Of a stretch of DNA of 28,285 nt, positions 7,901 through 27,946 are shown piece after piece. Source of the stretch: a virus; the IMG/VR virus record IMGVR_UViG_3300037427_000905, positions 1-28,285 of that record. One strand, written 5' to 3'. Position numbers and translations under genes: made by a program. The notes beneath the pieces were generated by a model. It was not told where the DNA came from. It worked only from the letters and a program-made list of their open reading frames with translations, and ran no database searches. Positions within the stretch are counted from its first letter, which is position 1; every line of letters begins with the position of its first letter.

Positions 7901-10900
7901 ATCTGCCAACCAGTGTTAGTAGATACGCTACCAATTGCTGAAGCAGTCTCAATTTGAGATCCTTGGAATACCTCTTCTCCTTCTAAGAATCTTGAAGTTT
8001 CAACAACAGCTTCTGCTTTACCACCGAATACCTCAGTTAGAAGTGTCTGTCTACCAGATCCTTGAGTTAGGAATGTAATGTAAGATCCAGCTTGTGCTGA
8101 CTGTAAAGTAAGACCAAATCTTAATTGGTCTGTTTCTAAACCAGCAACCTCACCAGCAATAGCATAATAGGTCTGTCCAGCGACTAACTGAGTCAAACCT
8201 GCGGTACTTGGTTTTGGTAATTCACCTTCTGTGCTACCAATATCATCTGCTCTGAATTGGACTTCTGCACCAGTGGTTATACCATGTGGGAAGTTAAACT
8301 GTAAGTAGTTAAGGTCTAAGTTAACAACGTAGTTAAATTCTGATTTCAGAGTAACAGATGGTTCGGATGAATATCCAGCACCACTGTTTTTGATGATGAT
8401 CTCATTAAGACGATTATTTTTAACAATTGCTTCTGCCTCGGCACCTTCTCCACCACCACCTTCAATTACAACAGCAGGAGTTGAAGTATAACCAGCACCT
8501 GGGTTGGTTATCTTAATCTGACTTAGTATTGATGTATTAAAGAGTTGTAGGTTAACAGGGAATGTAATCTCTGGTTTTAAGGTATAGTCATGTGAATAAC
8601 CGAAACCAAATTCATTATTCTTAAGTCTCTTAATCTTACCAATATTACCACCAGTTAAGAATACAGATGCACCAGTACCTTCAGCAGGGATTACTACATT
8701 TGCAGCACCACCAGAACCTGCAAGTGTGCTACCTAATATTCCAGGAATAGCATCAATATCAATAGATGCAATAGTATATCCTTTACCTGGATCTGCTACA
8801 GAAGCACCAGTTATAGTTCCTGATCCAGTCTCATCATCTACCTCAACAGTAATAGTTGCTTTACCACCTTCACCATCACCTGCAACAGGGACATCATAGT
8901 AAACACCTGGAGCATATTCAGTACCTCCATCAGTAATAACAATCTTCTCAATCTGTCTGAATGATGCAATATCACTAATGATAGGTAACTTCTGATAGAA
9001 TCCACCTGGAGAAACTAGTTTAATAGTATTGATAGGTCCAACTGCTCTTAGAGAAGTAGTTGAATAGTATGAATATACTTGATCAAATTCATCAGTACCA
9101 ACTTCAGCATTGCTTCTCTCTGGCTCTTTTAATAATTGGAATTTAAAACTAGTATCTGTTGGTACTTCGGTAACAGTAAACGTGCCTTCATATGGAGTAG
9201 TAATAACATCAATGAAGGATAGAGGTCCAACAGGAGAATCAGTGCCAGTCCTTGATGGATCGAAGTAGTAAGAGATATTAGTTACATCACCTAATACAGA
9301 GAATTTAACAAACGGATATTGACCAGCACCTAAAGGAACACCTGGTGTGCCAGATCTCTCAATGTTGTTAAATGAGTATTCTAGTTTGTATTGGTTATCC
9401 TGAGAGAATGATAGGTAGTAACCGAAGTTAGAAGTATCAGATACATCGAAGACATACTGATGGTTTCTAGTAAATTCTAATGTTGGATGCTTTGCATAGA
9501 TGTTAACACTATTAATAGCATTGTTATTAAATGCAGGGTCACTTACAGCAGTTGCTCTAATACCAAATGTATATTCTCTAGATCCAATTACCTGATCGAT
9601 AAAGAATGATCCATTAAACTGAGTGCCTTGGAATCCTTCAGTAAAGATAATACTACCAGCAGTAAAGTTATGAGCACTATTTGATGTGCAATAAACATAC
9701 TTGGTACGATTAGTTGCAGTCCTAATAATATCCTTCTCTAAACGTGCTGTAACACGAATCTTCTTAACAGATGCTAATCCACCAACAACTACACTCTTCT
9801 CATCTTCAGCAACAGTTATATTACCAGCATTAACACTAATAACATCTTCTGGGATGTATAGTGAACCAGGATGTATCTCTATAATCTGTACTGTATAGTT
9901 GTTACCTAAATCATATCCTAAGTTTCTAGCATAATCACTAATAGGCTCAGAGGTTGATATAAATGTCCAAGTTACACTTCCATCAGAAGCATCACCAGTA
10001 GTATGAACTGGAGCAGTTGTACCAGATACACCAGCACCACCACTTGCTACCTCATATACATTTAACTTATGTCTTACTTGCTGACCAACAACATATAATA
10101 GGTTGTTGTCCCACTCAGGCATATCACCACCCTGATATTGTGGCATTGGATATGGATGATCAGTTAAGTCTAATGTAAACTTACCTGCATCATCTATAAA
10201 GACCCAGTTTATATTACCATCACTTGCTTGACCAGCAGTATGACTAAGTGAAATTGTACCAGATGTACCAGCACCTAGTGCTTGATAGATCTTCTTATCA
10301 CTGTATACTCTATCATCTTGAGCATATACTGTAGCAGCTTGCCAAGGACTCTCTGGTTCATCGATATTGAAATATTGACCTTCTATTTGGTTTACATCAG
10401 CAACGTCAGTTCTAAACCTGTCAGTATCGTTAAATGTACCATACATTTTACCGACTTCATACTTATTACCGAATCCAGGATTAAGTAAAGTGCCCTCAGG
10501 TACTTTTACGATTGTGCCGTATGCTTGAGTAACTCCAGCACTATTAAATTGCTGTATGATAGCACCCTTAGTTAATTTAACATCTTGATTAAATGTAAAC
10601 TCAAGGACATTATCAATCTTCTGGTATAGAGCATCACGGACATAGAACTTACTAATTACATCAGCACTAATTTCTAATGTCTTACCTAGCGGTGATGGAA
10701 CTGTAGAAGTCTTAGTTGCATACTCAGACTTAGATGTAGTAAAGGAATATGTGCCAGGTATAAAGGTTGCAGCTACCTGTGACATATCCAAGATCTGAAG
10801 ACCACCAGCACCTAGATCCCAAGGACTAAACGCAGATACGTTTAGATCAGCCCAAGTAGTAGGAGTTTCAATATCAGTAAACTCTATAGTTGACCACTTA

Positions 10901-13900
10901 GATAATCCAGTAAGAGTATAAGGTGCTCTCTTATCATGGAGTCTATCAAACTTGATTAAAGCAGAATCTGAAATAGATGTAGTAACAGGAATCTCTTCTC
11001 CTGGTAAAGTGTATGCAGTAGTATATGGTGCAATATCATCAACTACAAGATCATCTATCCAACCAATAAATGAGTTACCTGAATTAGGACCAGAATACTT
11101 ACCAGCAAAGGTTACATCAGCAGCACTAATATCAGATGTAGACTGATAGTTACAAACTAGGTTTCCATTTAAGAATATCTCATACTGATACAATCCAAGA
11201 GACTCTTCTCTCTTCTGGAAGGTTACATGACACCATGCAGCACTACCAAATGTAGTCCAATTAGTAGCAACAGGAGAAGAAGCAACTTCTACTGAGTTAA
11301 CGTAAACAACAAACTTCTCATAGTTACCACTTGTGCTGTCACCATCTAATTCAACCTGAATAGAATCACCAGCAACAGGTGTCACATCAAAGAATAATGG
11401 TTTAGTATTCTGTGCAGTATGTTGAGCAGTTGCCATAGAGTACCATGCCCTATAACTCCACTCCTTACCAGTAAGATTTAAAGCAGGAAGTTTAACAGGG
11501 CAGATACCACTTAACTTAAGTGACCCAACACCAAACTTTTGAATAGATGTATCAACCCATGCATTCGCAGTAGTATGGAATGCCATTGTTGACAAATTCT
11601 GCTTGGTAGTTTCCTCAGATCTATCAGCATCGTTATTAAAACGATATGATGCTATCTGATCTGCTTGTCTACGATCTACAGCAAGAATACAGTCTCCAGA
11701 GTTATCAACAGTATGCCACTTAGTCTGGAATCCAATATTAGCAGTATCATCAACTTTAGTCTCTTTAATTACACTACCATCATACTTAAGGTAATGAATT
11801 ACTGAATATCTTTGATTTTGAGATTCTATAATATCAGTAACTAATGTATAGTTACCAAACACGTCTAAACTGATTCCAGCGTGTTTGATGGAATCTACGT
11901 TACCAGAAACAGTAACTGTCTTAGTCCAAGTCCATGAAGTGTTAGCAGTTGCAATTGGGAACTTATTAATCTGTATTTTTTCCCATTTCGAGGTAGCAGA
12001 GTTATAAACGTTCCAAATCAGTATAACATCGTCATAATTATCAATAATGAATCTTGGGTCTCTTACATATCCACCAACTGTAGGAATTTGTCTAATCCAG
12101 TCAATTTCAATGTTTGCACCATCATAGAAGAATACACCGAAGATACAGTCATCGTTTTGCTCATTTACACCAACAAACATGAATCTATCATTTGAGATCC
12201 ACTTGATTTGATGCATTTCTTCTGAATCATCAGCAGAAGCAAGTTTACGTTTTTCTACAAGGTCACCATCAATGCTACACTGAATAACCCACATATCGTT
12301 AGGATCAGGTGAGTTACTATCGGTATAACCACAAAGGTAGATACGACCATCTTGGTCTAGGTCTAGTCCTGTTACCCAGTCCCTTCTAGAAAGACCTGAG
12401 ATACCTGCAATTGACTTCTGCCATAGTAAGACACCATCAGGTGCATTTGCATTGTTAAACCCTGATTCATACTTACCTAACCAAACATCAGGATTATACT
12501 GTGAATTGTTAGGATCATAACTTTGACCAACAACATATATGATATCTTTCTCAGGAACATCATCAATATGCATCTTGATGAATTCTGCTTTCTTAGTACC
12601 GCTATTAACAGGGATTAAATCTCTTTCCCAGATAAGCTGGCCTAGATCATCAAATTTGGCAAGAATTGCTGATTGATCACCATCTGCCTCAAGCACACTA
12701 CCACAAATGTAAGTATAACGTTGTGCAGTAGTTATTGAGTGGTGTATAGTAACTTGACCAGCTGCTTCTTTATATTCAGTTAACCAATAACGAGTTTTCT
12801 TAAATTGCTGTGGATGAGATACTCTAATCTGTGGAGGATTATTATCATCATATCCATTACCAGAGTTAATGATATTAATAGTGTTAATCTGACCAGTACC
12901 TTCTAGTTGTAGTGTTAACTCAGCATCTTGACCAGATGCAGTAATCAACTCAAATGTAGGTGGAATGTCAAGATTATATCCAGTACCTGCTTGAGTAATG
13001 TCAATTCTTTCAACACCAGCAACAACCTTCATTCTGTAGATCTTACTGGTATTATCGATAACAGGACGGGAATTTACAATGATCTCATCTTGCTGTCTTA
13101 ATTCATGTCCTACAGATGTAGTAATTACACCGTAAGGACGGTCACCTATTATCTCTTTCTGATAACCAATAATATTCTGACCTTGGACAGATTCAATAAG
13201 AGCAGATGCTCCAAATCCACCAGTATCTTCATTATCGAAGAATACGGTATCATTGACCTGATAAGACTCGCCTGGGTTCTCAACAACAAATCCATCTATC
13301 TGAGCATTCTCAAACTGTGTAGTTGTCTCAACTTCGATGTCAACTCTAGACTCTTCTGATACTTTCGGGAAGTAATCATAAATTTGTAGAGTTGCCTCTT
13401 CAGACATCTCTAGTAATTCTTGTTGCTCATTAGCATCAATCAAACCATCATTATTAGAGTCCTGTATTTCAAAGATAATAGGATATCCTTCTATCTCAGT
13501 AGTAAATACATCTGCCTCTTGGTTTGGTTGACGATCAACATCGATATCAACATCAGTATATGGATCTCTATAACGGACAACACCATTAGGAATATTCTCC
13601 TGTGTTGCTATTTGAGAGAAGTTCCAGTTATCTGGAAGTGAGTTAAATTGTGGACCTAGGATATATGGGAATTCTGGAAGACCTGCTTCACTAGCATCTA
13701 TAGTTACAAAGTAAGCATATGTGCCATCTGGATATTGAGGTGTCTTACAGAAACGACCATTATAGTTGTCTAGGTCACCAGACTGGAAGTCGTAATAGTA
13801 GTCATCAACAAAGGTACCAGCATCATATGTTGAAATAGGAGGACCATCTACCCTTGAAGGACTAGGATTAGTAATCTCATCATATACAACGTTTGTCTTT

Positions 13901-16900
13901 AATTTAAAGGAAGTACGCATCCTTCTAATACCACTATTAGCATCAGTAGGATCAATATATCCATATGGACCATATATTGGGTTACCATCAAACGACCAAC
14001 CAATAATAGGTGAGTGTTGGAAGTTAGACTCTAATTCTTTAAATGTCTGAGTAACAGGATCCAAATATACGTTGTCACCAACAACATATCTTAATTCTTT
14101 AGGATCTGATAGGTGAGCATATTCACCACCAAACTGGTTGTTATATCCAGTGAATACATAACCTCTTGCATTGTCAAATTTAGTGTCAAGATCATATTCA
14201 AGGTTTTTATTCCACTGATACACAGTAGGTGTAAAGGTCGCTAATTGACCCACTGCTTCGAGTCTAACGGTTGTTAAACCTTGAGTGTATCCAATTCCCT
14301 TGTTAGTAATAGTTACGCCTAATACACGACCTCTATCTTCTCCAATCGTGCCGATAGTTGCTTTAGCAATAGCACCGAAACCATCACCATTGATGATTAC
14401 AGTAGGTGCTGTTGTATATGATTCACCAGAGTTAATAATAGCGATAGATACGATTCTACCGTTAATAACAATAGGTTGTGCTAAAGAACCTTCACCAGAG
14501 TTAACCTTGATAGAAGGAAGTGAAGTATAACCACTACCAAAGTTTGTTACGTTAACACTCCGAATAGTACCTCTAACGTTAGCAGTTGCAGTTGCCCCGC
14601 TACCGCCACCACCTGTGATGGATACTAAAGGTTGTGTAGTATAATCTTTACCTGGTTGCTCTACTAGAATTCTTGTTACTCTACCACCAGTAATAACTGC
14701 CTGTGCAGTAGCACCGCTACCATCACCACCAACAATAGAAACTAATGGTGAGAATGTATATCCAGATCCTCCCTCAGTTACTTCAAATGAATCTAAACTA
14801 CCATTAACTATAACTTCAGCAGAAGCACCTGTTCCTCCACCACCTGTTATCTCTACGTTAGGTTTAGCACCAGCATCATAGTCTACACCTGAGTTGGTAA
14901 CAGTGATAGAAGTTAAAGGACCATATTGGATGAATTCTCTTGATTTGTAAGACCATATAGAAACACCATTAATCCAAGAACCGATAGGTGTTCCTGGATC
15001 AACTGTCTTACGTTCTGAGATTGTCTGGACTAGTCTGGGGAATCTTAAGAGTTTCCTTTGGTTTCCTGGGATGAGAGCAGACCCAGTGAAAGGACCAATC
15101 TTATAATTGGGTAGACCAGAAGCAGCAACATAAACATAGTTATCGTTGAAGAATGCATTTTGTATATTAGTAGTAAATTCACTAACCACCTTGTTGATGG
15201 ATGTGATATCAGACTTACCTCTGTTGAGGTCAACCGATAACAGGATATTACCGCCAGGTACTATCTCTGTTGGTACTGCTATTTGATATGAGAATTGGAA
15301 TTGGTCAATTCTTGATGTTACAGTAAATGTGCCGTTGTATACAACAGGGTTAGCACCATATATCGTAACCTGATCAGATACTAGTAGACCATGTGGGTTA
15401 TCACAAAGTACAGTAGCAGTCTGGTTATTAACACCACCAGGAGTGATAGTATTAACCTGAATCAGTTTCTTAACGTTATATAACCAAGACTGGAGTCTCA
15501 ACTCCTCAGCAGTAGATCCAAGGTTTGCTACTTTTAGTTTATCTCCTTGAAGATAATATGACCCAGTATCATTAAGAACTGTAGTACCTGCTTCAGCAAT
15601 ACCTAACACTCTTAACTTACATTCTTCTGAAGTACCTCTATTAACGTAGACATAGATGTCCGACTGGACTATGGTACCAGGATCCCAATCTTCGACGATT
15701 CCATTCTTAGACCTAGTACACTCTATGAACTGGTTTAGGGACTTCTCCTTATACTGGACTTCTTCCTCATCATTGACCCTTATAGTACCGTTTCTCTCAG
15801 GCCATCCAATAGTACTGTCAACTGTTAGGATTTGACCGTCTAAACTAAGAGGCTCAACAAGACGAGTCTTATATGGAATAATAAAATTACCAACTAGGGT
15901 TTCTTCAGATATTGCTAATTCATAGATGGTGTCAGTACCTTCAATAATAGTAATGACGTTTTCAATCAACGCAGATGCATTGGTAACACTAGTGTCTACA
16001 TCATCAGCATATTGGTTGATTTGAGAGTCAATAAGGTTTGCAGCATCACCTTCTATTAACTCAGCACGTAAAATAGTGTCTACAACCCAAGTAGCATGAG
16101 ATGGACTGATGATTTCATCTTTAGGATAGTAAAGATCAACATCTTCACCAAATAGAATCTTAAAGAGGTATTGAGTTGCTAATTTGGTTCCTTTAGAGAT
16201 ATAGAAGTCACTAATATTCTTAATGACCTGTACTGGGTTAACTTTGGAAAAATCAATATCCAAAGTAGGCAAATACTGCCTTCTAAACTTATCAAAGACC
16301 TCTTTAATGAATAAAGAGTCTAAATTGGTTACATAAGACGATGCTGGGTGATTTGACTGTCTTAGAGCAGCTTCACCAGCATATACCTCATTATGGAGGT
16401 TATCATACTCTACAGGACCAGATACACCTCTAGCACATCCTAAAAATGCACTAGGAGAATAATTTGCCCCTTCTTCGAGAATATCAAATCCAGTAACTTG
16501 ATCAAACCCAACATCTACAGATGCTCTTGCTGCACGAGGTTCTGCGATGTATATTTTGGGAGGTTCTGTTTCTGAGTAACCAGATCCAAAATTAATGATA
16601 TTAATGTCTGTAATTTCGCCATTAAAGATAGTTGCTTGTGCTAAAGCACCTGTACCTCCAATTGGCACTCCATATCCGTCTTTTCTGTCATCTACGATAT
16701 AAACTGAAGGTGCATCGGTATATCCTTGTCCACCAGTCAACATTTCGATATTTGTGACTGATCCAGATGCTACAGTAACGTCTAAGACTTGAGCACCGAT
16801 AGGATCGATTATTTTAGTCCTAGGAGGGGTCAGATACCCTCTACCACGGTTGGTAATCTGAATTTCGTAAACTTGCCCATCCTGGTTGATTTTAGCGATT

Positions 16901-18315
16901 GCTTGAGCATTGATACCACCATCGGGTGCTTGATCAATATAAACAACAGGAGGATTACTATATCCACTACCCATAGTAGAAACAGTGATAGTATCAACGT
17001 TAACACGTCCTTCACTGTCAATTGTTGGTTGAGTAATGATTGCTCCACCAGGATTCTTAAATGAGATCGCTGGAATGAAGTCATAACCGCTACCACTGTT
17101 AGTAATGGTCAAACTATCGACCATTCCAGTAGTATCGTTAACTGTAAGATTTATTTGTGCAGCAGTACCATTAGAATCGCTTGGAGACGCTACAATTGGG
17201 ATTGGAGGGTTATATGAATTGTATCCCTGACCACCATCGATTAAATTGATGTCTTTAATACCACCAATCAAAGATCTGGCAGTTGAACCTCTACCATCGT
17301 TACTTGTGATAGTAACTCTAGGTGCAAAGTCTAATCTGTACTTAGATCCACCATCTTTAGGGATTAATGCCCCAATTGTCCCATCAGTAGCAACCTTAGC
17401 AATTGCGGTTGCTCCTGAACCGTAAGAAGGAGCAATATATTCAACAGACCTAATATGGATAGCGTCAGCAGCTCCAACTTCATTTTTGAAAACAACTCTA
17501 TCTTCAAAAACGGTAAAATCTTCATAAGGGACTTGTAAACGACCATTTTTATTAATAATTAACCCAATTTCTGAAGTTGGGGTGTATGAAGTCCCATTTA
17601 CTCGTAATGGGTACTCTTTTGTGTTTTGCCACTCCTGATATGGAATAGAATCCGTTACAGTGATGGTTTGATCGGAATATCCGACCAAATATGTTAATCT
17701 AGTGAATTCTGAATCATCTGCACCAGTTCTATCTCTAGGTGCACTATCAAAACGTATATTAAACCCTTCAATGAAGTAATCTACGTTTGGCACCAACATT
17801 GTGTTGTAGGTAATCACAATTAAGTGCTCTGCTGAAGGAGGAGCGACTGGAGTACCTAGAAAGCTTAACTGGAAGTTATTTTCGACCCCATCGAACAGTG
17901 TAAAGGGGTTTTCTAGTTGTTGTTTCTTCTTATTAAACTGTGGAAAGGAAATTCCTGGAGTAATGATGACATCAGGACCACGAGTAACTGTTTCGTAGTA
18001 AATAACCTCATTATCGATCATCAAGGATCCATTCTGACGCTGGAATCCGTCTATTTCCTCAACTTCTATCTTTTTATCATATAAACCAATTTCGTTCAGC
18101 AATTTAGTTGAACTTGACAACTCTTCAGAGGTGTAACTATCAAGATCAAGATATCTCAATAAATTGTTGAGTATATCGTATGGTCTACCTGTTTTTTCCT
18201 GAGACTTATAATATTCAAACAAGAAGTTGACTAGTTGTCTGTCTTCCTGACGAATAAATTCAGGTAACTGATTTTCGACCCTATCAGAGACGTTAATATT
18301 CTTCGTAATCGGCAT
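1..18315 (-). CDS. Giant modular virion structural protein (fibre/adhesin), partial at its C-terminus
   Basis: The frame is open from ATG 18315 to base 1: 6105 codons, with the stop outside the window. The start lies 5 bp after the gp6 stop, with no clear Shine-Dalgarno, and an exact late promoter sits 61 nt upstream inside gp6. Modules in order, with approximate residues: baseplate-type N-terminal region (1-60 and 670-740), GxGY repeats (280-590, 1130-1345, 3110-3325), YHYH signature (1435-1452), EF-hand loop (1619-1630), probable beta-propeller (1848-2218), LamG-like domains (2222-2425, 4452-4615, 5288-5468), carbohydrate-binding-like pair (2650-2780), six helical CxxD repeats (3975-5252) and six FTC/YPR repeats (5480-6105). 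Very large multi-domain proteins downstream of gp6 are, from memory, a feature of marine T4-like phages. I infer a baseplate-attached long fibre or adhesin that binds host glycans. No enzymatic site was recognised. The frame and phage context are clear; the exact role is inferred. Confidence 0.9.
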   Translation of the reverse strand, partial: MPITKNINVSDRVENQLPEFIRQEDRQLVNFLFEYYKSQEKTGRPYDILNNLLRYLDLDSYTSEELSSSTKLLNEIGLYDKKIEVEEIDGFQRQNGSLMIDNEVIYYETVTRGPDVIITPGISFPQFNKKKQQLENPFTLFDGVENNFQLSFLGTPVAPPSAEHLIVITYNTMLVPNVDYFIEGFNIRFDSAPRDRTGADDSEFTRLTYLVGYSDQTITVTDSIPYQEWQNTKEYPLRVNGTSYTPTSEIGLIINKNGRLQVPYEDFTVFEDRVVFKNEVGAADAIHIRSVEYIAPSYGSGATAIAKVATDGTIGALIPKDGGSKYRLDFAPRVTITSNDGRGSTARSLIGGIKDINLIDGGQGYNSYNPPIPIVASPSDSNGTAAQINLTVNDTTGMVDSLTITNSGSGYDFIPAISFKNPGGAIITQPTIDSEGRVNVDTITVSTMGSGYSNPPVVYIDQAPDGGINAQAIAKINQDGQVYEIQITNRGRGYLTPPRTKIIDPIGAQVLDVTVASGSVTNIEMLTGGQGYTDAPSVYIVDDRKDGYGVPIGGTGALAQATIFNGEITDINIINFGSGYSETEPPKIYIAEPRAARASVDVGFDQVTGFDILEEGANYSPSAFLGCARGVSGPVEYDNLHNEVYAGEAALRQSNHPASSYVTNLDSLFIKEVFDKFRRQYLPTLDIDFSKVNPVQVIKNISDFYISKGTKLATQYLFKILFGEDVDLYYPKDEIISPSHATWVVDTILRAELIEGDAANLIDSQINQYADDVDTSVTNASALIENVITIIEGTDTIYELAISEETLVGNFIIPYKTRLVEPLSLDGQILTVDSTIGWPERNGTIRVNDEEEVQYKEKSLNQFIECTRSKNGIVEDWDPGTIVQSDIYVYVNRGTSEECKLRVLGIAEAGTTVLNDTGSYYLQGDKLKVANLGSTAEELRLQSWLYNVKKLIQVNTITPGGVNNQTATVLCDNPHGLLVSDQVTIYGANPVVYNGTFTVTSRIDQFQFSYQIAVPTEIVPGGNILLSVDLNRGKSDITSINKVVSEFTTNIQNAFFNDNYVYVAASGLPNYKIGPFTGSALIPGNQRKLLRFPRLVQTISERKTVDPGTPIGSWINGVSIWSYKSREFIQYGPLTSITVTNSGVDYDAGAKPNVEITGGGGTGASAEVIVNGSLDSFEVTEGGSGYTFSPLVSIVGGDGSGATAQAVITGGRVTRILVEQPGKDYTTQPLVSITGGGGSGATATANVRGTIRSVNVTNFGSGYTSLPSIKVNSGEGSLAQPIVINGRIVSIAIINSGESYTTAPTVIINGDGFGAIAKATIGTIGEDRGRVLGVTITNKGIGYTQGLTTVRLEAVGQLATFTPTVYQWNKNLEYDLDTKFDNARGYVFTGYNNQFGGEYAHLSDPKELRYVVGDNVYLDPVTQTFKELESNFQHSPIIGWSFDGNPIYGPYGYIDPTDANSGIRRMRTSFKLKTNVVYDEITNPSPSRVDGPPISTYDAGTFVDDYYYDFQSGDLDNYNGRFCKTPQYPDGTYAYFVTIDASEAGLPEFPYILGPQFNSLPDNWNFSQIATQENIPNGVVRYRDPYTDVDIDVDRQPNQEADVFTTEIEGYPIIFEIQDSNNDGLIDANEQQELLEMSEEATLQIYDYFPKVSEESRVDIEVETTTQFENAQIDGFVVENPGESYQVNDTVFFDNEDTGGFGASALIESVQGQNIIGYQKEIIGDRPYGVITTSVGHELRQQDEIIVNSRPVIDNTSKIYRMKVVAGVERIDITQAGTGYNLDIPPTFELITASGQDAELTLQLEGTGQINTINIINSGNGYDDNNPPQIRVSHPQQFKKTRYWLTEYKEAAGQVTIHHSITTAQRYTYICGSVLEADGDQSAILAKFDDLGQLIWERDLIPVNSGTKKAEFIKMHIDDVPEKDIIYVVGQSYDPNNSQYNPDVWLGKYESGFNNANAPDGVLLWQKSIAGISGLSRRDWVTGLDLDQDGRIYLCGYTDSNSPDPNDMWVIQCSIDGDLVEKRKLASADDSEEMHQIKWISNDRFMFVGVNEQNDDCIFGVFFYDGANIEIDWIRQIPTVGGYVRDPRFIIDNYDDVILIWNVYNSATSKWEKIQINKFPIATANTSWTWTKTVTVSGNVDSIKHAGISLDVFGNYTLVTDIIESQNQRYSVIHYLKYDGSVIKETKVDDTANIGFQTKWHTVDNSGDCILAVDRRQADQIASYRFNNDADRSEETTKQNLSTMAFHTTANAWVDTSIQKFGVGSLKLSGICPVKLPALNLTGKEWSYRAWYSMATAQHTAQNTKPLFFDVTPVAGDSIQVELDGDSTSGNYEKFVVYVNSVEVASSPVATNWTTFGSAAWCHVTFQKREESLGLYQYEIFLNGNLVCNYQSTSDISAADVTFAGKYSGPNSGNSFIGWIDDLVVDDIAPYTTAYTLPGEEIPVTTSISDSALIKFDRLHDKRAPYTLTGLSKWSTIEFTDIETPTTWADLNVSAFSPWDLGAGGLQILDMSQVAATFIPGTYSFTTSKSEYATKTSTVPSPLGKTLEISADVISKFYVRDALYQKIDNVLEFTFNQDVKLTKGAIIQQFNSAGVTQAYGTIVKVPEGTLLNPGFGNKYEVGKMYGTFNDTDRFRTDVADVNQIEGQYFNIDEPESPWQAATVYAQDDRVYSDKKIYQALGAGTSGTISLSHTAGQASDGNINWVFIDDAGKFTLDLTDHPYPMPQYQGGDMPEWDNNLLYVVGQQVRHKLNVYEVASGGAGVSGTTAPVHTTGDASDGSVTWTFISTSEPISDYARNLGYDLGNNYTVQIIEIHPGSLYIPEDVISVNAGNITVAEDEKSVVVGGLASVKKIRVTARLEKDIIRTATNRTKYVYCTSNSAHNFTAGSIIFTEGFQGTQFNGSFFIDQVIGSREYTFGIRATAVSDPAFNNNAINSVNIYAKHPTLEFTRNHQYVFDVSDTSNFGYYLSFSQDNQYKLEYSFNNIERSGTPGVPLGAGQYPFVKFSVLGDVTNISYYFDPSRTGTDSPVGPLSFIDVITTPYEGTFTVTEVPTDTSFKFQLLKEPERSNAEVGTDEFDQVYSYYSTTSLRAVGPINTIKLVSPGGFYQKLPIISDIASFRQIEKIVITDGGTEYAPGVYYDVPVAGDGEGGKATITVEVDDETGSGTITGASVADPGKGYTIASIDIDAIPGILGSTLAGSGGAANVVIPAEGTGASVFLTGGNIGKIKRLKNNEFGFGYSHDYTLKPEITFPVNLQLFNTSILSQIKITNPGAGYTSTPAVVIEGGGGEGAEAEAIVKNNRLNEIIIKNSGAGYSSEPSVTLKSEFNYVVNLDLNYLQFNFPHGITTGAEVQFRADDIGSTEGELPKPSTAGLTQLVAGQTYYAIAGEVAGLETDQLRFGLTLQSAQAGSYITFLTQGSGRQTLLTEVFGGKAEAVVETSRFLEGEEVFQGSQIETASAIGSVSTNTGWQIGPKILKIVDYTGDWAAGEKVTGVISKASGVIDNFSIARGVLNIGSLTKTPGRFIDDVGKPSEIVQKIQDSFFYQNFSYVVKSEIPITEWKTQVLENNHPAGFNMFGQLQLSGGKDVSGRKIGTEFTKKVNIQNYSNVNQITSFGAAQPIYTDYNNTEVLFRKKRLTSSEEILTSIVKKMDDIGDQFDGIKKQFPITVEGQTVIVKENQLLITLNGIIQSPGVSYQIVGGNLVFSEPPKPPSKVNYRILGVTPTPIYRIALYDGFGGTNYGIFPTLGQQIQGQLSDTVATVIDSGTNHLDVINLVGGTFDLNEQIKRGEIFAALVESVTLVNSPTIFRFGEGLTNLDGDTAYVEETNVDQEGVINDRIVVSKTSGTPRFETGIFDFRLNEFIYSASSKIAGQITYIAPYSDPINDEVVDELIINKGTTFQGLLYERLVSLENPNVILDDISQSSITPTEINNSEERINADFLDFEQVRTTEVTYSQVTGGNFTLGEVIRNKKVFYGNPISVFHANAANRFLDAKRNISNNKQEIIDFAEAQIAIDHPDYYFPNDIITNSWSRFKDAYRLIQNNKSMIAGMAFDDMKTQYPGSSIPSDAKCKRDLEYMIDAVSIDCFAGGNVYTRKFVQQFFTAEGVYQHVNAQSAETRFAFEKAKDRMKAAVANQYSGTINAVNSGDSWTGYQDLTITADPSPNDNYGTPGSNTSNTDADNCTDVQAAITTLWEFTDEALNNSSLNDLPDETIGSYSPHQTLCRRDLGYFIDAISNDLGSGGQYNTVEFTKKFFDAAGIPLTNGIAGEEAQAVTAFQAARDLMYRAINNLLYWKDLSGVGYNLNDPTTYSGGVAPANTYDANYASGNNQDINNCANVKTYIGTLSDIATVAFNAGNLTNVNALTVTDGTFQDNETIRTTKIGYKNRSRGLFIIGDQIKGMTSGALFEALGSNSGLKWIFAGNITGTFQAGEYITNSRLTATNCTTSVIVKKATLNGSKSVYIPSNAILKTPESLDFEFGTGDFTIESWIRPAANVGTQYLFDFRRLSSAQGLNIRMDGQSIKVYNGNTLGVDSGNIVATTGTWYHLSVVRASGVTQMYVNGAQVGSNWADTNTYLYAAASVGMDFNQTSHWAGHIDNLYIRKGTADHQTGFTPPTQVDYTVDGIVLGIDGEAPFILSTTEVYAEYSGQRSSNAAAKKVDYANLLAIIEDVDLGRQEYRDCADIIDLNGAWIAEEAVGRMKAAFSDFTIKGDVPSENSYGGTDKCIRDTKDYILGALVKDIREGGNYHTIYTARTYLTIGGELNFIGNEILQSLYTWNEVIKIAKDVITTVSTELTGTYTTRMRIPNNFSTPAGAAVQAEITTLGDDLLKVIAPNDQRFREGGFQLWKNRDYIAEEVAGYIQNKYQAEINGVIYDFLEMPGYGEPYCVRDIKDFIIPGVIADLVTGGTYQTQSVVDKYLDDQENILNIEHEINAMMDAFDYAKMLCMKAINNLLMSPGEVANGLVDNDGTPLGLPAYVQEEYFAPTYTTRGAYRDSAIVLDTEGYPQANRSSNDRYLDAAESIWTNRHLIAKECVSIMNDLSKYENLQIPGGHVNCEDDVIDMIEALVHDIRFDCNEKTYDAAALYVETEDNSLKHIETEYEATITVVKILRDICTMVMRNAFGRDYVEGNEPNLKPVQTYEQNPREDLYWKCGDAIDGNIRYIAEQAVSAGLQQYPGLLIPGGSVNCVHDVTDILRSLVFNLKYGGNNWMQYASEFYTTYTGNLDHVTNASAETNWIINKAKEYAIRAMKGQVITNDAGHNVDQVIYDAVPRPVTSLFNSGPDGIQINQPNNIVTRSFKFGEDKISTTDSGTGLVPDEDAVFRLVTKLPSSPIDCCLFEAGDSTAGVWVGIRDSGSYFRIRAGNGANSYSGGASYTSDTGLAMLDLQVGGTLSSYFDNGDHEIVFEITVGGTVTVGPGAIKLWIDGNFISEVTTPGGQNTGLAGGSGIFASANYAGFGSSAGSLVAGESATTNTFTLNVGPAPTIAYDISNAKYDSSTGDLELTVGSHNHTVGTYLKLVSNSINFTCDMDNNQSTHSYPRSGDPAGNTAIEVLKVGSTEWTADTASYNPETGMMTVTVPDHGMADSTTHTAKDAAYDPDSGVLQITCEDHGFKTGDQVKIHNGSIIFTCSQDNYATKHGYPRAKDPAGDQWLLVEAVTSKDVFKVNVGMTPRVEYNVSDAEYNQVDGELTLDVGNHRFVGATHHVASYAEYDAEKGHLKMTVPGHKITNGEQIQITENSMTFTCSMDNHYTNHVYPRPTDPCVGNWLDVVESDIPGGTFTVNVGQSPIVGFNPSTATFNAETGALNLVIGSHSLAAGTHIKLAQNSLHFTCDMDDHSSTHSYPRSKDPVHNEPLVITATDSNSITVNVGITPQVEYDVDAATFDTSTGALVLTTDRKFSFRDSSIHSISGATYNGSTGLMRLTVTNHGFGNGDYVKIADGGVTFTCDMDNNATNHAYPRASDPYSNKWMDVRNVSLDQFDVYVGKTPELPFTVSDATYNPSNGTLILTVGEHDLVAGHSIKLTQDSVAFTCLLDNNVTTKTYPRSSGSAYIGNGGADPFYNKPIQIANVTDTTIELNVGISSDLTTHTFIPNTGLTPTAIDHNP
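1910..2450 (-). other. LamG-like jelly-roll domain 3
   Basis: Residues about 5288-5468 include IVTRSFKFGEDKIS, VWVGIRDSGSYFRIRAGNG, HEIVFEITVGG, IKLWIDGNFISEVTTP and a glycine-rich closing strand, SGIFASANYAGFGSS. The strand order is LamG-like but more divergent than in domain 2. It lies between the helical repeats and the FTC/YPR repeats. Confidence 0.5.
2560..6390 (-). repeat. Six helical CxxD repeats in the giant protein
   Basis: Between residues about 3975 and 5252, six diverged helical modules recur at about 110-250 residues. Each has an N-R/D-x-x-I-A-E-E-like helix, then C-x-R/D-D-x-x-x-x-I, then a D-x-x-x-G-G-N/Q-x-x-T turn and a further helix. Core examples are CKRDLEYMIDAVSIDCFAGG, CRRDLGYFIDAISNDLGSGG, CIRDTKDYILGALVKDIREG, CVRDIKDFIIPGVIADLVTG, CEDDVIDMIEALVHDIRFDC and CVHDVTDILRSLVFNLKYGG. 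LamG domain 2 lies inside the series. Similar repeats are, as I recall, present in other marine phage structural proteins, with unknown function. Confidence 0.7.
4470..4970 (-). other. LamG/concanavalin-like jelly-roll domain 2
   Basis: Residues about 4452-4615 fit the classic LamG_3 pattern: SKSVYIPSN, FGTGDFTIESWIRP, YLFDFR, LNIRMDGQSIKVY, TGTWYHLSVVRASGVTQMYV, NGAQVGSN and HIDNLYIRKGTA. It is the clearest of the three jelly-roll domains and is expected to bind carbohydrate. Confidence 0.8.
8340..8960 (-). repeat. GxGY beta-repeat array 3 in the giant protein
   Basis: Residues about 3110-3325 contain further copies, including IVITDGGTEYAPGVYYDV, ASVADPGKGYTIASIDID, IKITNPGAGYTSTPAVVI and IIIKNSGAGYSSEPSVTL, with GGGGEGAEAEA connectors. 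Recurrence of the module in three separate places suggests it is used as a spacer between functional domains. Confidence 0.7.
9960..10360 (-). other. Paired carbohydrate-binding-like modules
   Basis: Residues about 2650-2780 hold two tandem modules. Each begins W-x-x-x-x-x-Y-x-x-x-x-x-V (PWQAATVYAQDDRVYSDKK and EWDNNLLYVVGQQVRHKLN), continues Y-x-A/V, then GTSG or GVSG with an SHTAG or VHTTG motif, and ends with DASDGSVTWTFI or a close variant. The pattern resembles the W-x-x-x-x-Y-x-x-x-x-x-V core of CBM5/12-like chitin/glycan modules in phage tail proteins. The assignment is from pattern memory only. Confidence 0.45.
11040..11655 (-). other. LamG/concanavalin-like jelly-roll domain 1
   Basis: Residues about 2222-2425 have the LamG layout: a GVGSLKLSG entry strand, WSYRAWYSM, VVYVNSVEVASSP, WCHVTFQK, YEIFLNGNLVCNY and the exit strand SFIGWIDDLVVDD. 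LamG-like domains of this kind bind glycans and are common in phage fibres. The ligand cannot be predicted. Confidence 0.7.
11660..12772 (-). other. Probable beta-propeller domain of the giant protein
   Basis: Residues about 1848-2218 contain repeated blades: an aromatic beta strand (YTYICGSV, IIYVVGQS, RIYLCGYT, RFMFVGVN), then a D-x-W-x-x-K/Q strand (PDVWLGKY, NDMWVIQC), then a loop ending in W (LIWERDL, LLWQKSI, IDWIRQI). The pattern resembles SBBP or quinoprotein-like propellers, with roughly 50-65 residues per blade and about six blades by eye. No catalytic residues were recognised. It sits directly N-terminal to the first LamG-like domain. Confidence 0.5.
13426..13461 (-). other. Canonical EF-hand calcium-binding loop
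   Basis: Residues 1619-1630 read DSNNDGLIDANE. All loop positions fit the EF-hand/dockerin consensus: D1, N3, D5, G6, I8, D9 and E12. The loop is followed by an acidic helix-like stretch, QQELLEMSEEATL. I infer that one Ca2+ could be bound here, stabilising a domain junction in seawater. Confidence 0.7.
13720..14200 (-). other. YHYH-type domain of the giant protein
   Basis: The segment IGWSFDGNPIYGPYGY (bases about 13960-14010, residues about 1435-1452) matches the core signature of YHYH-domain proteins, G-W-x-x-D-G-x-P-I-Y-G-P-x-G. YHYH domains occur in bacterial surface and secreted proteins and, from memory, in structural proteins of marine T4-like phages. Their biochemical function is not settled. 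Domain edges are approximate. Confidence 0.75.
14270..14930 (-). repeat. GxGY beta-repeat array 2 in the giant protein
   Basis: Residues about 1130-1345 carry six consecutive repeats with GGGGSGATA-type connectors: ITVTNSGVDYDAGAKPNVEI, FEVTEGGSGYTFSPLVSI, ILVEQPGKDYTTQPLVSI, VNVTNFGSGYTSLPSIKV, IAIINSGESYTTAPTVII and VTITNKGIGYTQGLTTV. The period is about 35 residues (about 105 bp), shorter and more regular than in array 1. The signal is at the protein level; the DNA copies have diverged. Confidence 0.8.
16080..16310 (-). other. Second half of the baseplate-type region (giant protein residues ~668-742)
   Basis: The segment contains KNISDFYISKGTKLATQY, then LFKILFGEDVDLYYPKDE. In marine T4-like structural proteins such a helical KxISDFYxxKGT..LFxxLFGE block usually follows closely on the N-terminal DFLEAYY-like block. 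Here the two are about 600 residues apart, with GxGY repeats in between. Family knowledge is from memory. Confidence 0.5.
16540..17480 (-). repeat. GxGY beta-repeat array 1 in the giant protein
   Basis: Residues about 280-590 show repeats of the form G-x-I-x-x-I-x-I-x-x-x-G-x-GY-x-x-x-P-x-V-x-I. Examples are INLIDGGQGYNSYNPPIPIV, LTITNSGSGYDFIPAISF, ITVSTMGSGYSNPPVVYI, IQITNRGRGYLTPPRTKI, IEMLTGGQGYTDAPSVYI and INIINFGSGYSETEPPKIYI. The repeats are spaced at about 35-60 residues and are separated by GTGA-type loops. They probably form stacked beta strands that give length and stiffness. Confidence 0.75.
17640..18315 (-). other. N-terminal baseplate-type region of the giant protein
   Basis: The first 60 residues (PEFIRQEDRQLVNFLFEYY, then LLRYLDLDSYTSEEL) resemble the aromatic, acidic N-terminus that, from memory, recurs in large structural proteins of T4-like cyanophages. 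The following stretch contains a GSLMIDNEVIYYE segment typical of small beta domains in those proteins. I infer that this end anchors the protein to the baseplate, because it lies immediately downstream of gp6. The matching second half appears near residues 670-740. Confidence 0.5.
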
Positions 18316-18320
18316 CTATC

Positions 18321-20444
18321 TTAGAAACAGGATTCGCTGACTGGATAAGTGAATGAATCACTTGGATAATCAATGATATTTATACCTCCTAGGTCACCGA
18401 AATTATAACCATTAAAGTTATTAGGATCGAAGGTAGGAATTGCTACATCGTTGATTGTATAGTCAATTGGATTGACTGAGGGACTAAAGATTGTTGGATC
18501 TACGCCAGGTGGTACTGTAATTGACCCACCAGCAGGTAAAACCTGAATAGGAAGTCTCTCAGTGTCATCTGGAGTGCCTTGCACCGCTATCGGTCCTACA
18601 CAAACGTTGCCATTTGCATAATCAACACTTCCAACAGAAGGATTTAATGTTAATTCGGTTTCATCTCTAGTTGTAACTAGGATTAAATTACCTTGTCCAT
18701 CATCTCTAATATTTACAGGTACTAAAACCTGATTAGTGACATTTGTTGACAAACCAGGAGATGATACTGCTACAGCAGTCGCTCCATCAGTCAAAGTTAG
18801 GTTAACTAGGTCTTCAGTATAACCAGTTGCGTAGAATGTACCTGATTTTACTGTTGAGAAGGATGGTTTACACTTACTAGTGCCTCCATCTCCATCACCA
18901 TCTCCATCACCACCCGCATCATCGTCTTTTGGACTACCTGCAAAGTTTGAAGGGTCATAAAGTGGGTTACCGAAGTCTAAACACTGGGTAAACACGTTAC
19001 CGAAGGTGAATTGGTCAAGATTTTGACCTAAAGTCATCTGAGTGACATTACCAGAGATCGCAGGGTCGCTACTATCAACCATCGCACCAAATTTAGACCC
19101 ATCTATGCGTCCATTGAAGCGATTATTGATACCTGCCTTATTCCACTGGTCAATTCCTTGTAAAATCTTAGTACCAAGTTGAGATCCAGTTAAATTAGTG
19201 TCATTTCCGTTATAATAAACGTAAGATTTCGGAATAACGTAGAAACTTGTAGGATCAATGATAACAGGATCGATTGAAGCAATAGAATACTTCAATAAGT
19301 CCTTTTTAATCTTTTGTTTTGTAGTTGCGTTGAGTTTATTTCCTGTTTTTGGTCTAATTGCAACATAAACCTTACCATATACAGGGGGAGTCAGTTTCTC
19401 GCCTCCGTAGGCGGTCACAGACGCTGCCTGGGGGTATATTTCAGAGACTATATGCTCATAGTCATTCTCAGTGACTGCTCTATTCTGAGTTGCATACGCT
19501 CTAGGTGCTCTAAACTTGACTGAGAGTGCTGTTTCACGGTCTTCACCGTCTTGAGCAGGGTCTTTAGTAGTTAACTTTATAGCATTGGGTGAAATAATCC
19601 TTGCATCACTGTCAACAACCTGACCAACGAAGTCAAAACCTCTTGCACCGTTAGCTTCAACCCCATCAGTGGTCACATATGTGACTCTTATGTATTCACC
19701 ATCAATTAATTTACGTCCAATTGACCCATCTCCGAAAACAAGACGGTATCTCATGTCATCTGTCTCTTCCAAGTAGTAAATTCTGGAAGTTGCATTGGCA
19801 TTTGTGACGTTTGCAGCAAGACTATAGGTATCAGTCTCTGATGATTGAGCACTTGGAGAAATATCTACGGTTAAAAGACCAGTATCTACGTTTTCATCAG
19901 GAATAACGAAGTCTTGTTTCCTAGTATAGTCAACTGTATAGTTTGCAGTAAGCAAATTACCTTGATAAACAGGGATACACTCAAAAATTGCCTGTCCAGT
20001 AGCAGTATCTACTGATACTTGAACGTCTTGAGTGAGTGCAAAGGTATAACTATCGTTTTCATTGTCTGCAACAAAGACATCACCCTTCCTAACAGTGGCA
20101 AATTCTGGGAAAGTGGTGCCATTTAGACCAACTGTTGTCTGTGCAACCAACTTTACACCTGCTCTAGGTGCTTTTATTGACCTTGGAGTGTAATTTAACT
20201 GCTTTGCGATCCTTACAATGTTATCTCTGACCGTTGCAGTCTCTAAAAATGCTTCATTCAACGCCATGTTAGCGTTAAAAGCAGTATAATATGTGTTATA
20301 TGCTAGTATATCGATCAGATATGAACTTGAGCTACCCTCAAAATCGTAATCGGTAAACTCTTTTCTAGTCCGAAGGTACGATTTAATGGATTCTTTGATC
20401 TCAAAGAAGTCTAAGGACGTTAATTGTGAAGGAATTGCTGCCAT
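18321..20444 (-). CDS. 6: Baseplate wedge protein gp6
   Basis: This 707-residue protein matches T4-like baseplate wedge gp6 of the Baseplate_J type. gp6 forms the ring-joining part of the wedge that links neighbouring wedges and opens during sheath contraction. The N-terminus (LTSLDFFEIKESIKSYLRTR, then YLIDILAYNTYYTAFNANMA and ETATVRDNIVRIAKQLNYTP) is characteristic. Central motifs are VFGDGSIGRKL, VTYVTTDGVEANG and the FRAPRAYATQNRAVTENDYE block. T4 gp6 is about 660 residues; this one has a longer C-terminus. An acidic glycine insert (GGDGDGDGDGG, residues about 504-521) breaks it before the last beta-rich segment. The ATG follows the gp25 stop by one base, so the two wedge proteins are probably co-translated. 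Its 3' end overlaps a late promoter for the giant gene. Confidence 0.95.
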   Translation of the reverse strand: MAAIPSQLTSLDFFEIKESIKSYLRTRKEFTDYDFEGSSSSYLIDILAYNTYYTAFNANMALNEAFLETATVRDNIVRIAKQLNYTPRSIKAPRAGVKLVAQTTVGLNGTTFPEFATVRKGDVFVADNENDSYTFALTQDVQVSVDTATGQAIFECIPVYQGNLLTANYTVDYTRKQDFVIPDENVDTGLLTVDISPSAQSSETDTYSLAANVTNANATSRIYYLEETDDMRYRLVFGDGSIGRKLIDGEYIRVTYVTTDGVEANGARGFDFVGQVVDSDARIISPNAIKLTTKDPAQDGEDRETALSVKFRAPRAYATQNRAVTENDYEHIVSEIYPQAASVTAYGGEKLTPPVYGKVYVAIRPKTGNKLNATTKQKIKKDLLKYSIASIDPVIIDPTSFYVIPKSYVYYNGNDTNLTGSQLGTKILQGIDQWNKAGINNRFNGRIDGSKFGAMVDSSDPAISGNVTQMTLGQNLDQFTFGNVFTQCLDFGNPLYDPSNFAGSPKDDDAGGDGDGDGDGGTSKCKPSFSTVKSGTFYATGYTEDLVNLTLTDGATAVAVSSPGLSTNVTNQVLVPVNIRDDGQGNLILVTTRDETELTLNPSVGSVDYANGNVCVGPIAVQGTPDDTERLPIQVLPAGGSITVPPGVDPTIFSPSVNPIDYTINDVAIPTFDPNNFNGYNFGDLGGINIIDYPSDSFTYPVSESCF
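18377..18384 (-). promoter_or_regulatory. T4-type late promoter inside the gp6 end, for the giant gene
   Basis: An exact TATAAATA (context GGAGGTATAAATATC) lies inside gp6 where it encodes GGINIID, 61 nt upstream of the giant gene's ATG. It would give the giant gene its own late transcript in addition to read-through from gp25-gp6. The exact octamer and the spacing are seen directly; activity is inferred. Confidence 0.6.
18885..18915 (-). repeat. Short tandem repeat encoding the Gly-Asp run in gp6
   Basis: The forward strand reads CCATCTCCATCA twice in succession, followed by a partial copy. On the coding strand this gives alternating GGT/GAT/GGA codons and the GDGDGDG run. Such 6-12 bp repeats can change length by slippage without breaking the frame. 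The run probably forms a flexible or Ca2+-binding linker between gp6 domains. Confidence 0.75.
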
Positions 20445-26989: not shown

Positions 26990-27163
26990 TTAACAAGAAT
27001 CACTGCTAAATTGCGTTGCGTCCATTAATGCTAACTTCTCGCTTTTAAACGGTCCATTCTTATTACATAGTGGGTAATTATACGCCCAAAAGTATTTCCT
27101 ACGTGTCTCCCATACTTTAACATCTACTGGAGGACTTGTGTTGATTGTTGTTACTTTGGTCAT
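26990..27163 (-). CDS. Small hypothetical phage protein (57 aa)
   Basis: The reading is MTKVTTINTSPPVDVKVWET, then RRKYFWAYNYPLCNKNGPFK and SEKLALMDATQFSSDSC, stop TAA. It is aromatic in the middle, with two cysteines, and looks like a small folded domain with a K-x-F-x-x-A-Y-N-Y strand. The family was not recognised. It is 21 bp downstream of the 56-aa gene and is probably on the same transcript from the sigma-70 promoter at 27378-27406. No Shine-Dalgarno is visible. The gap after it is rich in palindromes. Confidence 0.65.
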   Translation of the reverse strand: MTKVTTINTSPPVDVKVWETRRKYFWAYNYPLCNKNGPFKSEKLALMDATQFSSDSC

Positions 27164-27184: not shown

Positions 27185-27355
27185 TTATGCGGGGTGGGGG
27201 TAATCGTTGCGGGGTTGTTGATAGTTTTCCACATATGTTGTGGAATTCTTATCATTTTCCCTTCTATACTTTGTCTTTGATTGTTTTCTCTTTTCTCGCA
27301 AACTCTTCGCCTTATGTGATGAATAAAGGTCATTACGTTTGTAAGATCTTCCCAT
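27185..27355 (-). CDS. Small, very basic phage protein (56 aa)
   Basis: The reading is MGRSYKRNDLYSSHKAKSLR, then EKRKQSKTKYRRENDKNSTT and YVENYQQPRNDYPHPA, stop TAA. The N-terminal 35 residues are about one-third Lys/Arg, followed by a polar tail. This composition and the MGRxxKRND start resemble small uncharacterised cyanophage proteins, from memory. RNA or DNA binding is plausible but not shown. The start is 23 nt after the -10 box of a consensus sigma-70 promoter, so the mRNA leader is very short (about 16 nt) and has no Shine-Dalgarno. The opposite-strand frame over the same bases looks like a shadow. Confidence 0.7.
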   Translation of the reverse strand: MGRSYKRNDLYSSHKAKSLREKRKQSKTKYRRENDKNSTTYVENYQQPRNDYPHPA

Positions 27356-27377
27356 TGGTAATTGTGCTTACATTGTT

Positions 27378-27406
27378 ATTATATAGCAGAAAATGTGTGG
27401 TGTCAA
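27378..27406 (-). promoter_or_regulatory. Consensus sigma-70 (early) promoter
   Basis: The minus strand has TTGACA (27406-27401), a 17-nt spacer, then TATAAT (27383-27378). All twelve core bases match the bacterial sigma-70 consensus. Transcription should start near 27371 and run into the 56-aa and 57-aa genes. It fits an early phage gene read by host RNA polymerase. Confidence 0.85.
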
Positions 27407-27616
27407 GGTGTTAGCGAGGATTGACATATTTCTCCACAGTTGTTGACAAAAAAATCTCGCTATGTTACGCTCTTAGATAACACTAACTAGAGTCAAATAA
27501 GGGCAAAGTAAATAACACGTACCTATGTTTAATTAACCCTTTTAAATATACACTTGTTTTCCACAATATGTCCGCTAAGTGTGGAAAACTCTCTTGTAAT
27601 TGTGTTTTAATTGTTA
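27407..27616. other. Non-coding gap with TTTTCCACA boxes and TTGACA repeats
   Basis: There is no supportable gene between the 56-aa gene's promoter and the 109-aa gene. TTTTCCACA boxes form an inverted pair (27557-27565 and 27580-27588), and a one-mismatch box is at 27430-27438. TTGACA occurs at 27421-27426 and 27443-27448, 22 bp apart. TAGCGAG (27412-27418) and CTCGCTA (27456-27462) form a distant inverted repeat. An A/T-rich stretch, TTTAATTAACCCTTTTAAAT, lies at about 27528-27547. Confidence 0.6.
27556..27589. repeat. Inverted repeat of DnaA-box-like TTTTCCACA
   Basis: Perfect 10-bp arms GTTTTCCACA and TGTGGAAAAC are separated by 14 bp. Each arm contains TTTTCCACA, which from memory is the consensus DnaA box of cyanobacteria. 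A third exact TTTTCCACA is at 27225-27233. It could act as a pair of protein-binding sites, or as a weak hairpin just downstream of the 109-aa gene. Confidence 0.65.
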
Positions 27617-27946
27617 TCATCTTATATACAAATATGATCCGTTACAGTCTACATTATTGAAGCATTGTTGGGCATTAGTTAATAAATTGTATCGGACGAT
27701 TGCAGCAGGTTTGTTATAACTAGCAGGTTTATATACATTACCATTGTTTATATCTACAAAGCAATGTACTGAATTGTCAGTAATAACTTTGTAATACTTT
27801 CTTCCCTTATTAACTGTTACATTGTATTCATGATTGCCCCATCTTTGATTATAATCATTGAGGACATATTCAGCAAGTTTATATACATTTTCTTCTATAA
27901 CTTGTGTGTCGTTAATGTTGTTAACTAGAGTTGAAAGTTGTGTCAT
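27617..27946 (-). CDS. Conserved phage protein with VHCFVDxxxGxVYKPAS motif (109 aa)
   Basis: The protein starts MTQLSTLVNNINDTQVIEEN and has a central GRKYYKVITDNSVHCFVDIN block followed by NGNVYKPASYNKPAAIVRYN. From memory, a K-Y-x-K-I-x-x-x-x-x-x-S-V-H-C-F-V-D-x-x-T/N-G-x-V-Y-K-P-A-S-x-x-x-P-A pattern recurs in small uncharacterised proteins of T4-like and podovirus cyanophages. Function is unknown. It follows the 75-aa gene by 24 bp with no Shine-Dalgarno and is probably in the same early transcript. It is followed by the TTTTCCACA inverted repeat. Confidence 0.75.
   Translation of the reverse strand: MTQLSTLVNNINDTQVIEENVYKLAEYVLNDYNQRWGNHEYNVTVNKGRKYYKVITDNSVHCFVDINNGNVYKPASYNKPAAIVRYNLLTNAQQCFNNVDCNGSYLYIR

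Follow-up and report, generated by a model that had tools for sequence, protein, structure and literature searches.

Exact host-type DnaA boxes form a conserved, helically phased module upstream of the baseplate genes of T4-like marine cyanophages, possibly a DnaA-tuned early replication start or promoter

The window analysed here is the whole of IMG/VR virus record IMGVR_UViG_3300037427_000905, 28,285 bases in length. Its genes for the T4-type baseplate proteins gp25 and gp6 lie on the minus strand, together with one for a PAAR protein and one for a 1371-aa product whose match to the baseplate wedge is partial. Downstream of gp6, positions 1-18315 are occupied by a single reading frame on the minus strand, longer than 6105 aa and open at the record end. 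By protein, the relatives of the window were Kyanoviridae, the T4-like cyanophages, a lineage known for host-independent replication. Neither a tRNA gene nor a phage-coded DnaA was found in the window, and the Rfam search of the window returned a single weak, chance-like match. The features of the region of interest were as follows:

26990..27163, minus strand: 57-aa ORF (phrog_24597), the next gene downstream of the 56-aa ORF
27185..27355, minus strand: 56-aa basic ORF under the promoter, with dyad 2 in its 3' part
27225..27245, no strand assigned: dyad 2, an exact TTTTCCACA (27225-27233), a 5-bp spacer and the shorter arm TGTGGAA (27239-27245)
27378..27406, minus strand: consensus sigma-70 promoter TTGACA-17-TATAAT, 12 of 12 matches, between the two dyads
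27441..27478, minus strand: 38-bp non-coding element, with a mean conservation of 0.96 over 27 sequences and 25 of its 38 columns invariant
27517..27556, no strand assigned: AT-rich conserved element beside dyad 1, mean conservation 0.85
27557..27588, no strand assigned: dyad 1, TTTTCCACA, a 14-bp spacer and TGTGGAAAA, two DnaA boxes in inverted orientation
27617..27946, minus strand: DUF7717 gene (109 aa), the upstream neighbour of dyad 1

Along the gene strand, the DUF7717 gene is followed by dyad 1 (27588-27557), the AT-rich stretch (27556-27517), the 38-bp element (27478-27441), the promoter (27406-27378), the 56-aa ORF with dyad 2 (27245-27225), and the 57-aa ORF. Relatives of the 56-aa ORF were encoded in 26 IMG/VR loci, and a 16-sequence alignment was built. 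A first, sequence-only reading of this DNA had described a cluster of DnaA boxes here. The boxes lie as it described, and the module is wider than that cluster, since it also takes in the 12-of-12 promoter, the conserved non-coding elements and the two small genes.

Within 365 bp lie three exact copies of TTTTCCACA, at 27225-27233 (+), 27557-27565 (+) and 27580-27588 (-), and the 28,285-base record has no others. In 100 dinucleotide shuffles of the window, the mean was 0.41 exact boxes and the maximum 2, with none reaching 3. The three 9-mers named at these positions by the sequence-only reading are therefore the sole exact copies and stand above shuffle expectation. With one mismatch allowed, the whole window contained 9 boxes against a mean of 9.19 expected; the clustering is thus restricted to exact boxes. 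The inverted arm TGTGGAA, said to pair with the first box, was also present, and 21 of the 27 aligned sequences retain it. The near match TTCTCCACA at 27430-27438 does occur, but among the 27 aligned sequences it was found in the window alone, and it was rejected as a fourth box.

For the alignment, 37 loci with the 57-aa protein were found, of which 8 were dropped for too little upstream sequence. The remaining 29 and the window made 30, and the removal of 3 duplicates left 27 aligned sequences (the window plus 26 relatives). The third box, that of dyad 2, was exact in 27/27. Dyad 1 retained at least one exact box in 27/27 and an exact inverted pair in 19/27, with no such pair in the other 8. 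The spacers of these 19 pairs measured 14, 15, 25, 26 or 27 bp, so that the length of the dyad shifts by about one helix turn, and the distance from dyad 1 to the third box stayed near 330 bp across relatives. TTTTCCACA was rare elsewhere in the related records and the cluster kept its position among relatives, two points on which the original claim could have failed. These boxes belong to a conserved module and are not clustered by chance. In a codon-wobble test, the GTG GAA at the third box within the 56-aa ORF was invariant in all 27 sequences; several other invariant residues likewise kept a single codon, which makes this test weak.

The promoter of the module scored 11 or 12 of 12 in all 27 aligned sequences. 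Apart from the box and the -35, the 38-bp element was the most conserved non-coding part of the module, and its conservation (0.96) exceeded that of the dyad (0.81). On the plus strand, against the direction of the genes, it carries a TTGACA (27443-27448) whose -10 is poor. The AT-rich element at 27517..27556 is a possible candidate for an unwinding element, and it was partly retained in the isolates S-WAM1, S-SZBM1, P-TIM40 and P-RSM6.

Furthermore, IMG/VR was scanned for the inverted TTTTCCACA pair alone (spacer 5 to 30), which gave at least 120 stretches and at least 80 loci. Loci were taken as cyanophage-like when at least 3 ORFs had a mean identity of at least 45% by blastp against 12 cyanophage genomes. 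By this rule, 55 of the 80 loci listed were T4-like cyanophages, and the other 25 failed it. The baseplate gene gp25 or gp6 was in reach for 37 of these 55, and the dyad lay upstream of it in 37/37, at 2.1 to 9.1 kb. A reversed-motif control scan gave 4 cyanophage-like loci among the 93 listed, a count that pools two reversed-motif patterns, one with one additional base per arm. The control pair ACACCTTTT-N10-AAAAGGTGT proved to be a recurrent inverted repeat in other viral contigs, with spacer 10 in 55 of the 93 pairs listed. Being itself enriched for this repeat, the control was unfit as a null for spacer length and was used solely for the share of cyanophage-like loci.

The 55 cyanophage-like loci listed yielded 64 unique pair spacers, nested pairs from one site included: 5 bp (5), 12-13 bp (3), 14-16 bp (40) and 25-27 bp (16). 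The peaks at 5, 14-16 and 25-27 bp are about one helical turn apart, and the phasing of these spacers at 10.5 bp (R 0.87) exceeded the null maximum of 0.51. The box flanks were also biased at these loci, with G before the box in 71% and A or G after it in 96%. Moreover, when sense-strand promoters with at least 10 of 12 matches were counted, the 400 bp on the downstream side of the dyad contained 55 and the 400 bp on its upstream side 7, and promoter density was 1.46 per kb near the dyad compared with 0.58 elsewhere. AT content around the dyad was 0.645 compared with 0.625 in the locus, and was higher in 40 of these 55 loci.

The cluster was also studied in 22 cyanomyovirus isolates, whose genomes of 174-252 kb contained 0 to 8 exact boxes each. 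When a cluster was defined as two or more exact boxes within 700 bp, it was present in 11 of the 22 (P-SSM7, S-WAM1, S-SZBM1, Syn9, S-PM2, S-SM2, Syn1, S-ShM2, S-SSM5, S-SM1 and Syn19), compared with a chance mean of 1.30 and a largest value of 7 in 20,000 simulations. It was absent from P-TIM40, P-RSM6, P-SSM2, P-SSM4, S-RSM4, S-SSM7, P-HM2, P-RSM4, P-RSM1, P-SSM3 and MED4-213, and from T4, the pelagiphage HTVC008M and the T7-like P-SSP7. According to the annotation of P-SSM7, Syn9, Syn1, S-PM2 and S-SM2, the distance from the cluster to the downstream gp25 is about 3 to 8 kb in these five. In an unbiased 9-mer clustering scan of six genomes, TTTTCCACA clustered in 5/6 and shared first place in the list with the GC-rich ACCACCGCC, which also clustered in 5/6. 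Cluster strength was also compared with 60 permuted 9-mers per genome. None of the 60 was as high in S-SZBM1, Syn1, S-WAM1 and S-PM2, 1 in P-SSM7 and Syn9, 2 in S-SM2, and 18 to 60 in P-TIM40, P-RSM6, P-HM2, S-RSM4, P-SSM4, HTVC008M and T4.

The arrangement of the boxes differed among the isolates. S-SSM5, S-SM1 and Syn19 had a 22-bp spacer, out of helical phase, and same-strand arrays were found in Syn1 (three boxes, 12-bp steps), S-WAM1 and S-SM2. P-TIM40 had no dyad but kept the promoter along with parts of the non-coding frame, and P-RSM6 kept parts of the frame with no clear promoter or dyad. The three boxes of S-PM2 (19231-19264) overlap annotated tRNA-Asn and tRNA-Leu genes, so this cluster may be fortuitous. 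The deposited circular record of S-SZBM1 starts about 600 bp from its box cluster (1-1006), which may be a coincidence. By host genus, taken from the phage name or host field (the S-RSM4 record gives no host), the cluster occurred in 10/12 Synechococcus phages and 1/10 Prochlorococcus phages (Fisher p 0.0019, a statistic that ignores kinship).

Most cyanobacteria have TTTTCCACA as their DnaA box and oriC next to dnaN according to PMC4674748 and PMC2275245, of which the former also describes Prochlorococcus as having no box near dnaA. For comparison, 31 dnaN-upstream regions were examined, 26 drawn from the family of Synechococcus RCC307 and 5 picked earlier; 4 of 35 dnaN loci were excluded for lying at contig starts. 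Exact TTTTCCACA was found in 17/31 of these regions (22 copies), whereas the initial 600 bp of dnaN had it in 0/31. A run of trinucleotides, CTACTACTA, was present in 21/31 and fits the DnaA-trio as characterised in the accessible text of PMC8287927, and the picocyanobacterial oriC regions have a DnaA-trio layout of two DnaA-box-like sites and then CTACTACTA. Two exact boxes on one strand were found in only 2/31 host regions, and several high-GC hosts had none. Upstream of dnaN, the Prochlorococcus genomes G014, G016 and G018 had near-match boxes only, and G019 had two exact boxes.

The 9-mer TTTTCCACA is thus common to host oriC and the phage module. The module differs from the cyanobacterial oriC in having no dnaN, no DnaA-trio and another box spacing, one seen in none of the 31 host regions. 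The identification of the 9-mers as cyanobacterial DnaA boxes in the sequence-only reading stands as far as the motif goes: it equals the printed box, sits upstream of host dnaN, and is clustered and conserved. No DnaA family match was obtained in 23 phage records, so the reader of the boxes would be the host's DnaA. From the sequence evidence, host DnaA probably binds at the module. If it does, a replication start and promoter control alone would be about equally likely.

Several results count against an origin. A DnaA-trio beside the boxes was found in 0/55 of the cyanophage loci listed and was absent from the window. The change of strand skew which the sequence-only reading had proposed as a check did not appear, as none of six whole phage genomes showed a GC-skew switch at the cluster. 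The skew extremes lay at the record ends in five of these genomes and, in Syn1, elsewhere and far from the cluster. The absence of the cluster from half of the 22 isolates also counts against an origin. Further points against the leading reading set out below are P-TIM40 with its promoter but no dyad, the lack of helical phase between dyad and promoter, the out-of-phase 22-bp spacer of three isolates, the host regions without the phage spacing, the missing repEA/repEB match and the overlap of the S-PM2 cluster with tRNA genes.

Comparison with T4 oriE points the other way. According to the accessible text of PMC3016281, oriE lies between genes 5 and 6, and it resembles the module in lying ahead of gene 6 and the PAAR gene, in its spaced repeats like protein sites, in its early-mode promoter and in its small early ORFs. 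As with oriE, the site precedes the gene 6 baseplate module at 37/37 of the listed loci with gp25 or gp6 in reach, and the module has, by sequence, an early-mode promoter with no need of a phage factor. The differences are that the T4 repeats are another 9-mer, AAGGTAATG, in 24-bp steps, that the accessible description of oriE has 0 mentions of a DnaA role (PMC3016281), and that oriE adjoins a switch of transcribed strand while genes run one way on both sides in the window. In addition, blastp of T4 repEA and repEB against four window ORFs gave no match, with a single alignment at E 4.5. In the T4 genome, AAGGTAATG occurs three times in 24-bp steps at 79430-79486, close to oriE (79355), and these copies are probably part of the printed iterons. 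A precedent for host DnaA beside promoters activating a phage origin is phage lambda, which has host DnaA boxes near promoters at its start according to the accessible part of PMC3985674. Lambda is, however, another phage type, and its boxes merely resemble the consensus.

On account of the likeness to T4 oriE and the lambda precedent, a DnaA-tuned, transcription-activated start is favoured, with plain promoter control close behind. Our leading reading, held tentatively and at somewhat less than an even chance, is that the module is a host-DnaA-binding, DnaA-tuned, transcription-activated early replication start or promoter of T4-like marine cyanophages. Host DnaA would bind pairs of perfect cyanobacterial boxes set about whole helical turns apart, and at the dyads it would tune an early promoter close to the consensus and immediately usable by host RNA polymerase. 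As at T4 oriE and in phage lambda, the start would be transcription-activated, with transcription across the AT-rich neighbourhood opening the DNA to the phage's own replisome, one of T4 type. The DnaA boxes would take the role of the T4 oriE repeats in a module of comparable place and like parts. A more specific form, rather unlikely as it stands, is an oriE-type origin with host DnaA boxes as its repeats, in which the first round is under the host initiator and the boxes were lost on the move to Prochlorococcus; several Prochlorococcus oriC regions hold near-match boxes only.

Among the alternatives, an early promoter regulated by DnaA and lacking origin function, through which the small early genes follow the replication state of the host, is slightly less probable again. 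The strong one-sided association of near-consensus promoters with the dyad speaks for it, as does the window promoter between two dyads. However, the distance from dyad to promoter ranged from about 80 to 400 bp with no helical phase among the loci listed, and P-TIM40 has the promoter without boxes. Moreover, a further exact box beyond the strong promoter was present in 3/50 of the loci listed, so a promoter flanked by boxes is not general.

It is less likely, at roughly one chance in seven, that the boxes act as a DnaA sink or switch, with multiplying phage genomes absorbing host DnaA or altering its nucleotide state in the manner of datA/DARS and halting new host rounds. Perfect boxes, few per genome and in fixed pairs, are consistent with this explanation, and the E. 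coli loci datA and DARS have small sets of paired DnaA boxes located in promoter regions (PMC5835720, accessible part). The cyanophage boxes differ in being phage-borne, exact and in phased pairs. Furthermore, 2 to 5 cluster boxes per phage genome would be a weak sink until late, and the fixed position before the baseplate genes and the promoter would be left unexplained.

Marginally less probable still is that the dyads serve as the operator of some dimeric regulator, either phage-encoded or another host protein, with a site that equals the DnaA box by coincidence. A dimer would fit inverted pairs whose spacers are phased, and the phages have no DnaA of their own (0/23 records). Against it are the exact identity with the host oriC motif and the link to host genus, and the same-strand arrays of Syn1, S-WAM1 and S-SM2 are ill-suited to a simple dimer. 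The model of the DUF7717 protein, encoded beside dyad 1, shows a long helix together with a beta-sheet; no PDB match at E 0.001 and no known DNA-binding fold were found for it.

An RNA hairpin or terminator, with the dyad acting in the transcript and not as a protein site, is very improbable. Dyad 1 does fold into a hairpin of 10 bp on each strand (z -2.6 and -2.3), and one terminator-like match was obtained at 27227-27245 (+), compared with 0.8 expected. However, 8/27 sequences have no exact inverted pair, the same-strand arrays of other phages form no hairpin, and the gene strand has no T run. Finally, a chance cluster, for which the low total box count and nothing else speaks, was rejected by the shuffles, the 9-mer clustering scan, the isolate simulations (11/22 compared with a mean of 1.30) and the 27/27 conservation, and its probability is negligible.

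In the mainly non-subscription literature searched, no report of a cyanophage DnaA box, DnaA role or replication origin was found, nor a described replication origin of T4-like cyanophages. The accessible text of PMC3037559, a comparative paper on T4-like cyanophages, mentions neither DnaA nor an origin of replication; the matching text in the accessible part of PMC2297514 was the word DNAase, and PMC6359870 gives viral dnaA genes in a table in its accessible part. Our results suggest that many ocean cyanobacterial viruses carry a host DnaA-box array before their tail-baseplate genes, and that the host start protein may tune their replication. The module offers a single, testable place to seek the replication start of T4-like cyanophages, and suggests that these phages sense or seize the replication state of the host. 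If host genus truly predicts the boxes, they would mark, at the sequence level, how abundant ocean phages are adapted to their hosts. As a minor observation on the hosts, the Prochlorococcus genomes G014 (C10:171472-171524) and G016 (C8:5082-5134) each carry an inverted TTTTCCACA pair 44 bp apart, which lies away from dnaN and adjoins a DUF1818 gene.
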